Assembly (NCBI GenBank): GCA_015066015.1
Contig: SVPE01000008.1
Coordinates: forward strand, 56,583 to 120,582
DNA: 64,000 nt
Origin: Oscillospiraceae bacterium
GTDB lineage: Bacteria; Bacillota; Clostridia; Oscillospirales; Acutalibacteraceae
Direction of reading: 5' to 3'
The position numbers and the translations under genes were made by a program. How positions within the stretch are numbered: position 1 is the stretch's first letter; each line of letters begins with the position of its first letter. Under the pieces are notes generated by a model. The model saw nothing but the letters and a program-made list of their open reading frames with translations, made no database searches and was not told the DNA's origin. This document shows, one piece after another, positions 49,506-56,871 of the stretch.

Positions 49506-52500
49506 TTAGTATACCGTTACCTTGCAGGATTCGCCGCAGTTTCCTTCAACGGAATCGGCTCTTACCATACAGGTACCCTTTCCGACAAGAGTAACCTTAC
49601 CGCTTGAATCTACACGGGCAACACTTGTGTCGGAGCTTGTCCATACAACACGCTTGTCTGTTGCATTTTCGGGCACTACCGTAGCCTTGAGATAATGTAC
49701 AGAGCCTACCATACCGCTTATGGTGGACTTATCAAGCATAACACCGAGCACGCTTGTTGCACTGACTGTAACCTGACAGTAAGCAGTGAAGTTGCCGTCC
49801 TTTGTTTTACAGTATACAACTGCAGTGCCCTTGCCTCTTGCAGTAATTACACCGCTTTGTGAAACTGTTACAACTGAGGTGTCAGAGGAGCCCCATGTAA
49901 CTGCCTTGTTGGTGGCATTTGCGGGATAAACCGTAGGAACAAGAGTATAGGTTGTACCCGTAAGCATTCCGTATTCGGTCTTGTTGAGCTTAACGCCCGT
50001 AACCCTGAGAGGATTAACCTTTACCGTACACTTGGCAGTATAGCCGCCGACAACGGTTTTGCAGGTTATAACTGCTGATGAGTTGGGGGTAAGTGCTTTT
50101 ATAAGACCTGTTGAAGAAACCGAAACTGCCTTGGGATTTGACGATGACCAGGTGACACGCTTGTCTGTTGCATTTGCAGGATAAACCGTAGCCTTGAGCT
50201 GATAGGTTTTTCCGTAATTCATTGAGCCGCCGGCGGTATTAAGAACAACCTTTGTCGGATTGATGGGAAGAACCTTTACCGTACATGTTGCAGTTTTACC
50301 GCTGTCAACGGTTTTACAGGTTATTACTGCAGTACCGGGCTTCACGCCGAGAATTTTACCGCTTGAGCTTACCTTGAGTACAGATGTATCGGAAGATGAC
50401 CAGGTGACCTTTTTGATTGAAGCGTTTTCGGGCATTACCTTGGCAACAAGCTGGTAGTATGTACCGACATACATTGAGCCGCCCTTGGTGTTGAGCGTCA
50501 CTGATGTGGACTTTATCACAGGCTTGACGGTGACTGTGCACTTGGCAGTATAGCCGCCGTTTACTGTTTTACAGGTAATGACTGCTGCGCCTGCCCTGAC
50601 ACCGGTAATCTTACCGTTTTTATCAACTGTAGCAACTGCCGTATTTGATGAGGACCAGGTAACACGCTTATCTGTTGCATCTGCGGGATAAACAGTAGCC
50701 TTGAGCTGACCTGTATAGCCTGCATAAACTGAGCCTGAGCTGTGGCTGAGCTTGACGCCCGTTGTTGCCACGACAACCCTTACATTGCAGGTTGCCGTAA
50801 CCATGGGATTATCCTTACTGCGGCATGTGATTACTGCACTGCCCGCTGCAAGACCCCTGATAAAGCCTGTCTGATCAACAGAAACGATCTTCGGGTTTGA
50901 GCTTGTCCATGTAACGTTTTTAAAGGTTGCGTTTTCGGGGTAAATTTCACATCTGAGCTGATATGTCTTACCTTTATACATATTTCCGCCTGCCTTGTTA
51001 AGAGCAATAGAAACAACCTCAACCTTTTTGAGCACCCTGACGGTACACGTTGCGGTAACACCGCCTACATTTGTTTTACAGGTAATTACTGCAGTGCCTG
51101 AGCCTACTGCGGTAACGAAACCGTTCTTGTCAACGGTTGCAACCTTAGTGTTGCTCGATGTCCAGGTAACGCTCTTATCATAAGCGTTTTCGGGAAGCAC
51201 GGTTGCCTTGAGAGTTCCCTTCTGTGTAACGTAAACCGTAGCAGAGGTTTTACTGAGAGTAACGCTTGTAGGCTTTGCATAAACCTTGATTTTGCAGCTT
51301 GCCTTGTATCCGCCTTCCTCTGTTGTGCAGGTGATTACTGCCTCACCGGGAGCAATACACTCTACATAACCCTTACCGTTTACCTTTACAACGGAGGGAT
51401 TGCTGCTTGTCCAGATAAGATTCTTATTGACTGCAGTTGAGGGGAAAATGCTTGCCTTGAGATAGCCTGTCTTACCGACATAAACTGATACGGAGGTCTT
51501 GTCGAGCCTTACGCCCGCAACTGTCTTGCCTACACCGATGCAGCTGAGAGGGAATTCCTGTGCCCAGATTCTCTGCATTGTGTCTGAGGGGTGAATGCCG
51601 TCAATTGTATATTCGGGATAGAAGGCATCGGGATCCTTGGGGTTAACGGAAAACTCGTTGAAATCTACAAAGCCGTCGTGCTCATTTGTGGAAGCAAGCC
51701 ATTTATTTACATTCTGAGCAATTGCCCAGTCTGCGGCAAATTCCTCATCAGTTCTGACATATTTCGCACCTGTGCCGAGATAGTCTCTTGTCGATCCCTT
51801 CCAGGGAGTGATGCCGACTGCAATAACCTTGATACCCGCATCGTGGCACATACGGAAAAGCTGTCTGTAGCCAAGGCAGATTTCCTGCCATGTGGGCTGC
51901 TCAATTCCCGGATACATTTCCATAACGTCATTACATACGGGATGGATAATATCGTTGGCACCGATTTTTATAATAACATACTCAACACCTGACTGGCTGA
52001 GCACGTCACGCTGGAATCTGTCAAGCAGAGACTCACCGAAAATAAGCGAGCCGTAACCGAGACCGTCACCGAGAAGTCTGTTACCGATAATACCCTTACC
52101 TGCAACACCGACATTTGTAATCTCTTTTTCATTTATAGCTCCTGCAAGATACTTGGGAAACTCATTTGAAACGGTGGAGTCACCGACAACTACAACCGAA
52201 TATGCATTTTCGTCGGCAAGAACGTCCATACTTGCAAGGCAGGGAACGACCTTGACAAAGCTGAATGCAAGCTTGATGTCAACATCGCTTCCGGTGATTT
52301 TTGAAAGGTACTCCATAATTTCCTGGCTGTCCATCATTGTACCGATGTCCATGGAAGCCTTGCTTGTATAGTCATTACCCAGAGCAAGATAGGTTTCGCC
52401 GCCGGAAAGACCCATTGTCTTTACCTCGGTGAAATCCTCGATATAAATGCTGATAGCGATATCCTCACCTGCTTTTACATCGTAAGTGATGGGGTCGGAG

Positions 52501-52892
52501 TAATATTCCTTACCTGCAGGAACCGACACGAACTGCTTACCCTCGTTGAAGGTTACGATTTTAACGCTGTCGGGATCAATTTTTGCTCCGCCAAGGCTCT
52601 TTGCAACTGTAACTCTTGTAAGCTTCATTATGTCATTACCGTAGTAGTTGGTAACACGGATACGGAGCTTTGAGCCGTTTGCCGTAGGAGTGATAACTGT
52701 TCTTGCAGTTACATTACCGATATAGGCGGTGATATTTTCATAACCGTCAATACCGATTTCCGTAGGAGCTGTACCCCAGGCGCAGACCCACTTTCCGTCA
52801 GAGTTTACGGCAGAGGCGCTGAAGGCCGCACCGAAAAGCAGAGTAACTGCCAGCACAAGTGCAATCAAAATCCCCTTTACTGTTTTCTTCAT
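49506..52892 (-). CDS. Secreted SGNH/GDSL esterase with eight BIG2 repeats
   Basis: A signal peptide (about 1-30) is followed by a beta-rich N-terminal region (about 33-210) and an SGNH hydrolase domain (about 225-455). The four blocks are GDSTVSN, the Gly in VGVAGKG, GANDII and DGIHPSD. Eight tandem bacterial Ig-like BIG2 repeats (~80 residues each; consensus YPxNATxKxVTWSSSNxxVxxV) fill 460-1128. It lacks an LPxTG anchor, so it is secreted or bound through the repeats. Similar multidomain esterases remove acetyl groups from polysaccharides; substrate here is inferred. It has its own consensus-like promoter and terminator. Confidence 0.9.
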   Translation of the reverse strand: MKKTVKGILIALVLAVTLLFGAAFSASAVNSDGKWVCAWGTAPTEIGIDGYENITAYIGNVTARTVITPTANGSKLRIRVTNYYGNDIMKLTRVTVAKSLGGAKIDPDSVKIVTFNEGKQFVSVPAGKEYYSDPITYDVKAGEDIAISIYIEDFTEVKTMGLSGGETYLALGNDYTSKASMDIGTMMDSQEIMEYLSKITGSDVDIKLAFSFVKVVPCLASMDVLADENAYSVVVVGDSTVSNEFPKYLAGAINEKEITNVGVAGKGIIGNRLLGDGLGYGSLIFGESLLDRFQRDVLSQSGVEYVIIKIGANDIIHPVCNDVMEMYPGIEQPTWQEICLGYRQLFRMCHDAGIKVIAVGITPWKGSTRDYLGTGAKYVRTDEEFAADWAIAQNVNKWLASTNEHDGFVDFNEFSVNPKDPDAFYPEYTIDGIHPSDTMQRIWAQEFPLSCIGVGKTVAGVRLDKTSVSVYVGKTGYLKASIFPSTAVNKNLIWTSSNPSVVKVNGKGYVECIAPGEAVITCTTEEGGYKASCKIKVYAKPTSVTLSKTSATVYVTQKGTLKATVLPENAYDKSVTWTSSNTKVATVDKNGFVTAVGSGTAVITCKTNVGGVTATCTVRVLKKVEVVSIALNKAGGNMYKGKTYQLRCEIYPENATFKNVTWTSSNPKIVSVDQTGFIRGLAAGSAVITCRSKDNPMVTATCNVRVVVATTGVKLSHSSGSVYAGYTGQLKATVYPADATDKRVTWSSSNTAVATVDKNGKITGVRAGAAVITCKTVNGGYTAKCTVTVKPVIKSTSVTLNTKGGSMYVGTYYQLVAKVMPENASIKKVTWSSSDTSVLKVSSSGKILGVKPGTAVITCKTVDSGKTATCTVKVLPINPTKVVLNTAGGSMNYGKTYQLKATVYPANATDKRVTWSSSNPKAVSVSSTGLIKALTPNSSAVITCKTVVGGYTAKCTVKVNPLRVTGVKLNKTEYGMLTGTTYTLVPTVYPANATNKAVTWGSSDTSVVTVSQSGVITARGKGTAVVYCKTKDGNFTAYCQVTVSATSVLGVMLDKSTISGMVGSVHYLKATVVPENATDKRVVWTSSDTSVARVDSSGKVTLVGKGTCMVRADSVEGNCGESCKVTVY

Positions 52893-52988: not shown

Positions 52989-54686
52989 TTACTTTTTTAT
53001 TTCCTTTGTACTTTTGCTTTGCGAGGGTTTGTCCGTCACTTTTCTGTTTTTTGTTGCAGAGTCTTTTCTGACGGGTGTTTTTTTCGCACCGGGAGCCTTT
53101 TTCGTTCCTGCTCCGCCTTGCGTGGAGGAAGTCTTTTGTACCGAAGGCTTTGCACCTGTCTTAGGCTTTGTGCCCGTCTTGGCGCCAGGCTTCGCATTTG
53201 TCTTTTGCTTCGCTTTTGCCTCAGACTTTTCACCGGAGCCGTAACCTTTTTCAGAAGGTGCTTTTTTCTTTGTTGGCTTACCTTTTTTCGACTTTCCTGC
53301 AAAGGCTATTTTTTTCTTTATTTTCTCCGTAAGCACCTCAAAGGACGAGGGGAACGGATCATAGCTTTTTCTTCTTTCCTTGTCGAAGTAGTCCTTAAGG
53401 TCAAGGGCGAATTTCAGACAGGCGATAAATGCTGCAATAAAAGCTATTATTATAAAAAATACCGATCCGAAAACTGCCTTTGCAGCGGTAATGACAAGTC
53501 CGCCGAAGCTGAGCTTTATATCATTTTTCGCAACAAGGTTTACGGTTTTGAGCTTATGTCCCGCATAATAGATGTTTGCCTGAGCGATAACATCTCCTGC
53601 CTTTACAGGTGCTATAACGCTTTCCTTATCCTGATCGTCGACAACCTCAAACATTACAGAAGCAGGTCCTGCTGAAAGTGGCACAAGGGCTGAAATCTCC
53701 TTTTCAGGTACAAGCTGCAGCTTTTCATCACCCTTTCCTGCAATTACATCAACTGTAGACACAACCTGCTCGACCGTTGCAACCACCTTGAAGCGTATGT
53801 TTTCATAAACCCAATCGAGCATCTTCTGTGCATCGGTCATTGAGGTGTTTTCGTCATAGCCGTCATCGTCTATATCATCATATTTTCCGTTCATTACAAC
53901 GGTAAGGTATGAATATCCGTCAGCATTTGAAACAACTGCGATGCATTCTCCTGCAAGGTCTGTGCTTGTCTGACGTCCCCCCGTTACGGAGCTGTGATAG
54001 TAATCCGCAACTGCAGGATTGAGCATCTGATTGGAGCCGAAGCAGGTACGCTTCTCATTGTAGTCTGTTTCCTTGAGTGTGATTTCATCAAGGGCAAAGG
54101 CCTCGGTAAAGGCGGGATAATTAACCGCATATTTGATAATTTTTGAAACATCTCTTGCCGTAGTGTACTGTCCCTCAGTATCAAAGCCGTGAATGTTTTT
54201 TATAACCGTTGAGGTGCAGCCTATCTTTTTGACAAGATTCTGCATTTCTGCAATAAAATTCTCCTCAGTGCCTGCAACATCGTGAGCAATTATACTCAGC
54301 GCATCGTTTGCACTGTAAATCACAAGACAGTCGAAAAGCTCTTTTTTTGAAACAATCTCACCCGCTTCGTAAAGTGCAGTGAGCATCCCCATCTCATATT
54401 CAAATACATTGAGATTTTCTTCGGTCAGCTTTATTTCGCCGTCAAGGTTACCCCACTTTTCAATAGCGACAACGGCTGCCAGCACCTTTGCAAAGCCGGC
54501 AATCGGTACCTGCTTTTCACTGTCCTTATCGAACAAAACTGTACCCTCTTCGAGATTTTCCATATAGTAAACACCCGAATCGAGCTGAGAAGTTACGGCA
54601 TCTGAATCAAAATTAGCGCTCACCGACGGTGCCGCAACAAATACAAGAGTCAAAAATACAAGAAAAAAAGAAAATAGCTTTTTCAT
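52989..54686 (-). CDS. DacA-like (peptidase S11 fold) protein lacking catalytic residues
   Basis: A signal peptide (about 1-24) precedes a domain recognisable as D,D-carboxypeptidase (YSANDALSIIAHDVAGTEENF, STVIKNIHGFDTEGQYTTARDVSKI). The nucleophile motif SxxK reads G64-F-A-K67 and KTG reads V234-T-G236; only SxN (S125-A-N127) survives. It therefore should not hydrolyse peptidoglycan or form a normal penicilloyl adduct. A beta region follows, then a transmembrane helix (about 405-432) and a ~130-residue Lys/Gly/Ala/Pro-rich cytoplasmic tail, absent from ordinary DacA. A structural or regulatory role in envelope synthesis is inferred. Confidence 0.85.
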   Translation of the reverse strand: MKKLFSFFLVFLTLVFVAAPSVSANFDSDAVTSQLDSGVYYMENLEEGTVLFDKDSEKQVPIAGFAKVLAAVVAIEKWGNLDGEIKLTEENLNVFEYEMGMLTALYEAGEIVSKKELFDCLVIYSANDALSIIAHDVAGTEENFIAEMQNLVKKIGCTSTVIKNIHGFDTEGQYTTARDVSKIIKYAVNYPAFTEAFALDEITLKETDYNEKRTCFGSNQMLNPAVADYYHSSVTGGRQTSTDLAGECIAVVSNADGYSYLTVVMNGKYDDIDDDGYDENTSMTDAQKMLDWVYENIRFKVVATVEQVVSTVDVIAGKGDEKLQLVPEKEISALVPLSAGPASVMFEVVDDQDKESVIAPVKAGDVIAQANIYYAGHKLKTVNLVAKNDIKLSFGGLVITAAKAVFGSVFFIIIAFIAAFIACLKFALDLKDYFDKERRKSYDPFPSSFEVLTEKIKKKIAFAGKSKKGKPTKKKAPSEKGYGSGEKSEAKAKQKTNAKPGAKTGTKPKTGAKPSVQKTSSTQGGAGTKKAPGAKKTPVRKDSATKNRKVTDKPSQSKSTKEIKK

Positions 54687-54887
54687 TTATATACACTCCG
54701 GTTGACAAGTTTTTGAAATTGTGTTTTAATTAATAGAGAAAGTAAATCTGTTATTACATAATGTATCAATTTATTATAACAATTTACGGATAAAAAGTAC
54801 ATAGCAAATCAAAAATTTAATTACAAAAAAATATAAACTTTTTTTGACTCAGAAATGAAAAAGCTCCACAGAAAGGACAGCTTATTT

Positions 54888-55583
54888 ATGATATATGTAA
54901 CCGGTGACACCCACGGAATTTTTTCACGCTTTGACGATCCCCGCTTCAGAAAGCTCGGCAGCGGAGACACGCTTATAATATGCGGAGACTTCGGCTTCGT
55001 CTGGGATGGCTCAAAGGAAGAAATCAACGTACTCAAGAAGCTCAGCAAAAAGAAATATAACATCTGCTTTGTTGACGGCACACATGAAAACTTCGAGCTG
55101 CTTTCAAAGCTCAAAATCAAAAAGTGGAACGGCGGTAAGGTGCACCATATCGGCGGAAACATCTTCCACCTTATGAGAGGTCAGGTTTTCAACATCGAGG
55201 ACAAAACCGTATTCACCATGGGTGGCGGAGAAAGCCCCGATATTGACATCCGTTTTGAAACAGAGACCTGGTCAGACCTTGAAATTCCCACAAGAGAAGA
55301 GCTTATCGAAGGCGTTGACAATCTGCAGAAGCACGGCGGTAAAATTGACATCATAATTTCCCACGAGCCTCCTGCAAAAATCAAGGATTTCCTGCTTATG
55401 GGTTCAGGTGCAAACGCAAGCATCACTGCAATCAACACCTACCTTGAGGACGTAAGCCGCACCTGTGAATTTGACCATTGGTACTTCGGCTCTCTTCATA
55501 TGGATAAGTTTATTTCAAACACCCACATCTGCGTTTTCAACAATGTCATAAACGCAAAAACCGGTGAAATAGTAAGGCGCTGA
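54888..55583 (+). CDS. Small metallophosphoesterase
   Basis: Calcineurin-like phosphoesterase of 231 residues. GDTHGIF supplies D-x-H, IICGDFGFVWD supplies GD, IISHEPP the next His, and the end FGSLHMDKF takes the place of GHxH. GNHE reads GTHE (DGTHENFE), so the usual Asn ligand is Thr. No signal peptide. ATG 54888 has AAAGGA about ten bases upstream; the ORF-track start at 54855 has no site. It is monocistronic, divergent from the DacA-like gene and followed by a terminator. Substrate unknown. Confidence 0.82.
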   Translation: MIYVTGDTHGIFSRFDDPRFRKLGSGDTLIICGDFGFVWDGSKEEINVLKKLSKKKYNICFVDGTHENFELLSKLKIKKWNGGKVHHIGGNIFHLMRGQVFNIEDKTVFTMGGGESPDIDIRFETETWSDLEIPTREELIEGVDNLQKHGGKIDIIISHEPPAKIKDFLLMGSGANASITAINTYLEDVSRTCEFDHWYFGSLHMDKFISNTHICVFNNVINAKTGEIVRR

Positions 55584-56244: not shown

Positions 56245-56871
56245 TTAGCCGAGAAGACCGCCGAGCATCTTTTCCATAAGCTCGATACCTGCTGCTGAGC
56301 TACCGTCAAGGAAGAGAAGACCGATGATTGTTCCGAATACCTTCATAAGTACGCCGAGAACCATAGTAAGTGTGTCGCCTTCTTGTACAGCGGGATAATA
56401 CTGAGCTTTGAAGTGGTAAATTCTGCTGCCTGAACCTTCAGGAATTCTCCAGTCTGTGCCGCCTGCAAGTGTCTCACGTGTTTCTACGCAGTACCAGCCC
56501 TGGAATGCATCGCCCTCAGCGGGAGTTACAAGGGGAAGGTTAAGGTAGGATGAGCCGTTTGCTGATGATGAAGGTCTGAGGTTGAACATACCGTTACCGG
56601 GAAGAGCAAGGTATCTTTCAGAAACATATTCATGATTGAAGTGGCCTGTGCCTGCTGCATCATAAACGGGAAGCGGGATATAGGACTTACCTCCGTTGAA
56701 GTCGAACTCAACGATGATGTAGTCGGTCTTGGGATATGTAGTGCCTGCAAGAGTGATTGATGAACCTGCTTCCCACTTGTTGAGAATGTCATCGTTTGAA
56801 GCTGATGCAGAAAGTGAAAGTGCTCCGAAAAGCATCATAATAGCTAACATAACTGATAATATTTTTTTCAT
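56245..56871 (-). CDS. Small secreted InlB-repeat-like protein
   Basis: A signal peptide (about 1-24, LSLSASASN) is followed by an InlB/Flg_new-like beta repeat region (IIVEFDFNGGKSYIPLP through AEGDAFQGWYCVET, about 50-160). A hydrophobic C-terminal segment (TLMVLGVLMKVFGTIIGLLFL) and short amphipathic end complete its 208 residues. It has no LPxTG motif, so the hydrophobic end may be a membrane anchor. Function unknown; such repeats usually mediate surface binding. It has its own promoter and AGGAGG site. Confidence 0.75.
   Translation of the reverse strand: MKKILSVMLAIMMLFGALSLSASASNDDILNKWEAGSSITLAGTTYPKTDYIIVEFDFNGGKSYIPLPVYDAAGTGHFNHEYVSERYLALPGNGMFNLRPSSSANGSSYLNLPLVTPAEGDAFQGWYCVETRETLAGGTDWRIPEGSGSRIYHFKAQYYPAVQEGDTLTMVLGVLMKVFGTIIGLLFLDGSSAAGIELMEKMLGGLLG

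Follow-up and report, generated by a model that had tools for sequence, protein, structure and literature searches.

A gene in the window (the whole stretch of 64,000 nucleotides analyzed here) encodes a protein with the fold of DacA-type DD-carboxypeptidases that almost certainly lacks canonical catalysis. The altered active site of this protein, referred to below as pseudo-DacA, is shared by an entire clade (the "core") within an uncultured genus of bacteria from the gut, in many cases that of ruminants, and pseudo-DacA is under strong purifying selection. The loss of the motifs, its spread, the selection, the orthology and the arrival of a new neighboring gene were all computed. On balance, we favor pseudo-DacA being a membrane-anchored pseudo-DD-carboxypeptidase with a binding or regulatory role, the likeliest partner being the SGNH protein encoded next to it.

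Domain architecture and active-site motifs

The gene, its domains and its motifs, which all lie on the reverse strand, are as follows.

52989–54686 (−): pseudo-DacA gene, an ORF of 565 amino acids plus stop, with Pfam matches and an ectodomain model with pLDDT mostly >90; a GGAG ribosome-binding-like sequence lies 5′ of its ATG
54615–54686 (−): signal peptide, residues 1–24 (VSA/N), from sequence reading and hydropathy; the model has a helix at 2–18 and low confidence at 20–24
53883–54587 (−): Peptidase_S11-like domain, residues 34–268 (PF00768, E 4.8e-28)
54486–54497 (−): degenerate motif 1, G64-F-A-K67 (SxxK in active enzymes), from alignments
54306–54314 (−): intact motif 2 (SxN), S125-A-N127, from alignments
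53979–53987 (−): V234-T-G236, just N-terminal of the true third box, from alignments
53967–53975 (−): degenerate motif 3, R238-Q-T240 (KTG in active enzymes), from family and solved-structure alignments
53847–53876 (−): acidic loop D271-x-D-x-D-x-x-x-E279-N280, a putative Ca2+-binding loop
53514–53768 (−): PBP5_C-like domain, residues 307–391 (PF07943, E 4.2e-6)
53403–53477 (−): C-terminal transmembrane helix, approximately residues 404–428, at a hydropathy peak; the model has a helix at 409–441
52992–53366 (−): Lys-rich tail, residues 441–565, predicted to be disordered and cytoplasmic, variable among orthologues

The Peptidase_S11 match scored 98.7 bits against a Pfam cut-off of 27.6. An AlphaFold2 model built from a 30-sequence alignment is confident for the ectodomain and disordered after approximately residue 461, and the solved structures nearest to it in a Foldseek search (E down to 1e-26) are E. 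coli PBP5 and its relatives and B. subtilis DacB. The PBP5-like fold is thus retained; together with the hydropathy profile and the Pfam domains, the model bears out the original prediction that signal peptide, fold and anchor are kept. A search of viral folds with pseudo-DacA returned ordinary phage DacC-like matches only. The predicted long basic tail is indeed present in this protein (125 residues, 34 of them Lys, net charge +27) but is not a general feature, tails being short or variable in many orthologues (453–505 amino acids). The acidic loop resembles loops that bind Ca2+, and metal binding is possible judging from its residues; four of its positions are invariant in the core, and the loop also occurs in the active orthologues L036, L039, L040 and L043.

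G64 falls under the catalytic serine whether the protein is aligned with its family or with DacB (3mfd), meaning that Ser64 has truly been replaced and that GFAK at 64–67 stands for SxxK, as predicted. The third motif had been placed at VTG (234–236). This string exists but matches the STG that immediately precedes KTG in B. subtilis DacB, and the family alignment, the 3mfd alignment and a profile search all put the true box at 238–240 (TGGRQTSTD in the query versus TGGKTGYTK in DacB), inside a predicted β-strand (residues 234–242). Thr-Gly has thus become Gln-Thr, and the basic residue (R238) is retained. Two of the three motifs are gone, in line with the claim of a double loss, but the second loss consists of RQT rather than VTG.

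Pseudo-DacA shares with low-molecular-weight DD-carboxypeptidases of the PBP5/DacA type (E. coli PBP5, B. subtilis DacB) the fold, the domain order, the signal peptide, the C-terminal anchor and SxN; it differs in lacking the SxxK serine and KTG and in having a full transmembrane helix with a basic tail. Its residues suggest that it would be unable to carry out the chemistry known for these enzymes. The M. tuberculosis S11 subfamilies of Rv2911 and Rv3330 likewise have distinctive conserved surfaces surrounding the site, and Rv3330 also has a C-terminal transmembrane helix (PMC4281109). In the S11 proteins analyzed in that study, the core catalytic residues are strictly conserved, whereas pseudo-DacA has lost them.

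Conservation, selection and evolutionary origin

Among 98 genomes (that of the window and its relatives), 97 contain a relative. We compared 30 core orthologues with 20 active orthologues and found the altered state of the motifs in all 30 core members. Position 64 is Ala in 21 and Gly in nine of them, compared with Ser in 20 of 20 active proteins, and position 240, the site of the KTG glycine, is invariably Thr in the core and invariably Gly in the active set. Position 238 is Lys or Arg (Lys in the 20 active orthologues), while position 239 is Gln, Tyr, Met, Ala, Val or His (Thr in the active orthologues).

Other parts of the former active site are retained. Lys67, which is also Lys in the active orthologues, is invariant (30/30), as is Asn127 (24 aligned members and the motif table; mostly Asn in active orthologues). 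Ser125 is mostly kept, with Gly in 7 of 30; Thr242 is kept, and Y124, which adjoins SxN, is invariant. Conservation that is confined to the core and missing from the active set is seen, among others, at W78, Y124, D273, D275, E279, N280 and Q307. At position 102, most core members have Arg or Lys where the active orthologues have a conserved Ser, and the conserved Leu of the GL motif has become Phe or Tyr. This Leu, which we tentatively assign to position 168, is probably the one lining the DAP groove of solved S11 enzymes (PMC4281109).

NG86 dN/dS for the S11 domain (residues 30–300) was calculated for 12 pairs; 11 of them gave 0.01–0.14 and the last gave 0.24. These values are rough since dS is near saturation in several pairs. 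A scan of public genome contigs with the single protein returned no relatives, whereas an alignment-based scan of public genomes yielded 29 named loci, which carry labels such as Clostridia, Oscillospiraceae or Ruminococcaceae and in many cases derive from ruminant guts. All 29 come from metagenome-assembled genomes, which could point to an assembly error or an early pseudogene. This explanation is exceedingly improbable, because the 29 public loci and the 30 genomes agree with one another, nearly all reading frames are open and selection is strongly purifying; we rejected both an artefact and a decaying gene.

A tree of 91 proteins, calculated with the motif columns excluded, groups the core as a single clade with support 100. 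Branching beside it are two members of the same genus, with Thr or Pro at position 64, and two Ser-less members of the same family, and the core and these four neighbors are nested among active enzymes. In the order as a whole, the Ser-less state arose several times, the branches marked on the tree forcing at least five changes. A tree on which all dead members go back to one loss was rejected (p-AU 4e-46, a value that is indicative, the group having been defined by the trait). Further S11 proteins of the same family or order without the serine carry Cys (L066), Tyr (L085), Ala (L048, L046, L059) or Gly (L063) in its place, apparently through independent losses. Four others (L060, L067, L070, L083) keep SxxK and have Asn in place of the KTG lysine (NYG, NSG).

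Synteny bears on the origin of pseudo-DacA through the gene upstream of it.

54855–55583 (+): divergent upstream gene, 242 amino acids, metallophosphoesterase-like by motif reading only, used as a synteny marker

This gene, which had no sequence match in Pfam, NCBIfam or the PDB, accompanies pseudo-DacA in all core loci but one (29 of 30), the exception lying where its contig ends. Of the 20 wider loci, 18 have it, and by ORF order it is immediately adjacent in 14 of the 20. Since dead and active copies share this neighbor, pseudo-DacA is an orthologue of the active enzymes at the same locus and so the original gene, altered in place; its being a spare duplicate was ruled out. The marker also bears on two genomes without a pseudo-DacA hit. 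Dispensability of the gene in G033 was rejected because the marker lies approximately 350 bp from the end of the contig and pseudo-DacA would lie off-contig; the G018 assembly is 88% complete and lacks the marker gene, so absence cannot be claimed there. Two genomes have an intact S11 paralogue with SxxK and KTG beyond the divergent upstream gene, near the dead copy (L077, L074; also L110, L111). In the window, positions 56245–56871 encode a protein of 208 amino acids that is predicted to be secreted and had no match in Pfam at E 0.01.

The downstream SGNH/Big_2 gene

Downstream of pseudo-DacA lies a second gene on the same strand.

49506–52892 (−): secreted protein of 1128 amino acids, an SGNH/GDSL hydrolase that also carries Big_2 repeats (Pfam, SGNH/GDSL E 8e-11; SGNH domain at 51513–52892)

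It starts 96 bp after the pseudo-DacA stop. The same neighbor adjoins pseudo-DacA in all 29 core loci that are assembled on that side, with a median gap of approximately 73 bp (25 core loci with a callable start), and it was absent from all 20 wider (outgroup) loci, including those of two early-branching members of the genus. Related SGNH genes are found elsewhere in the genomes of these two members, which suggests that relocation brought the gene alongside pseudo-DacA in the core clade. An apparent absence of the gene in G012 and G015 was rejected, since long antisense ORFs had masked the genes and tblastn finds SGNH in place. Outside the trio of upstream gene, pseudo-DacA and SGNH, gene order mostly differs between genomes.

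Most SGNH copies retain the Ser, Asn and His motifs. In one subclade (L096, L097, L098, L100) the catalytic His is Asn or Leu, and the SGNH partner may be losing catalysis there too. Hairpins or T-runs occur in several of the gaps between the two genes, and a promoter-like match precedes the SGNH gene, the promoter and terminator matches being near chance numbers.

Possible roles of pseudo-DacA

A dead site and selection on the remaining protein are both found in pseudo-DacA, and the clade-wide loss of the nucleophile, the purifying selection, the kept fold and the conserved new neighbor give good support to the idea, already part of the original prediction, of a repurposed envelope protein. 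An ordinary active S11/PBP5-type enzyme in the ancestry of the genus lost its nucleophile (Ser to Ala or Gly) and the TG of KTG, while purifying selection retained the fold together with Lys67, SxN and the former active-site cleft in remodelled form. We propose that the protein, once exported, sits on the outside of the membrane and binds rather than cleaves, serving envelope processes as a scaffold or regulator. Its likeliest partner would be the downstream, co-directional SGNH/Big_2 protein, which it could bring to the membrane or regulate. The trimming done by carboxypeptidases would be left to a separate paralogue; the one other S11 protein in the same genome is intact (SVTK, SAN, KTG), and with five transpeptidase-domain matches also present, ordinary penicillin-binding chemistry is covered.

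Taken by itself, the pairing with the SGNH/Big_2 protein is suggested by adjacency, and we put it forward tentatively. Against it, the gain of the SGNH gene is one event on the tree, with no independent replication, and may reflect coupling or mere stable insertion; moreover, the gaps with hairpins or T-runs and the promoter-like match make co-transcription uncertain, and one SGNH subclade lacks the catalytic His. More speculative still is a specific version of this pairing, in which a pseudoenzyme with a PBP fold, having lost catalysis in situ and recruited a new neighbor, serves as anchor or gate for a secreted SGNH hydrolase and so represents an EnvC-like class of regulator built on a DD-carboxypeptidase fold.

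Alternatively, the dead cleft could serve as a sensor or decoy that binds D-Ala-D-Ala or other stem peptides of peptidoglycan, either titrating these or signalling their presence by way of the basic tail. The membrane anchor and tail are present, and Lys67, Asn127, Thr242 and mostly Ser125 are retained, which keeps binding of a peptidoglycan ligand possible; in solved S11 structures, SxN is inferred to contact the carboxyl group of DAP (PMC4281109). Other features argue against this role: the GL-motif Leu is Phe or Tyr, Ser102 of active orthologues is replaced by a basic residue in most core members, and the basic tail is not conserved. The KTG threonine holds the terminal D-Ala carboxylate, and precisely this residue is not retained, position 239 being variable in the core, while the KTG glycine has become an invariant Thr. 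These substitutions tell against the D-Ala-D-Ala decoy originally suggested, and we regard a sensor or decoy role in general as unlikely. Less probable again is a structural filler, a spacer that folds and is anchored and has no specific ligand: conservation of fold, secretion and anchoring agree with it, but a mere spacer would presumably have no need of invariant K67, N127, T240, T242 and Y124. The invariance of T240, K67, Y124 and N127 could also be read as rewired catalysis, with Thr240 or another residue replacing the Ser64 nucleophile and acting with Lys67 in a new reaction. This seems very unlikely, as residue 238 alternates between Lys and Arg, residue 239 varies freely and Ser125 is Gly in some core members; we know of no precedent for a rewired nucleophile in the S11/PBP5 fold.

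For the binding or regulatory role that we favor, the closest parallels are the degenerate LytM factors EnvC, NlpD and H. pylori Csd2, inactive proteins that act by binding (PMC5053510, PMC8360153). Like pseudo-DacA, these have the fold of a cell-wall peptidase with a dead site and were kept as a binding or activating module; in contrast, they belong to an unrelated fold and family (M23), and their partners are known, whereas that of pseudo-DacA is a candidate. DltE of L. plantarum is a PBP-like protein annotated as a DD-carboxypeptidase, in which the third motif is not conserved and the function has moved off stem peptides (PMC10241514). Unlike pseudo-DacA, DltE retains the SxxK serine and has esterase activity. 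Searches of open-access papers found no pseudoenzymes of the S11/PBP5 family.

S11 carboxypeptidases are usually regarded as catalytic, and automatic annotation will label pseudo-DacA a DD-carboxypeptidase. A pseudo-carboxypeptidase that is selected across a clade and has a conserved neighbor offers an example, open to testing, of a PBP fold that serves for binding. Because the serine has been lost repeatedly within the same family in one bacterial order, such a non-catalytic role may be recurrent.
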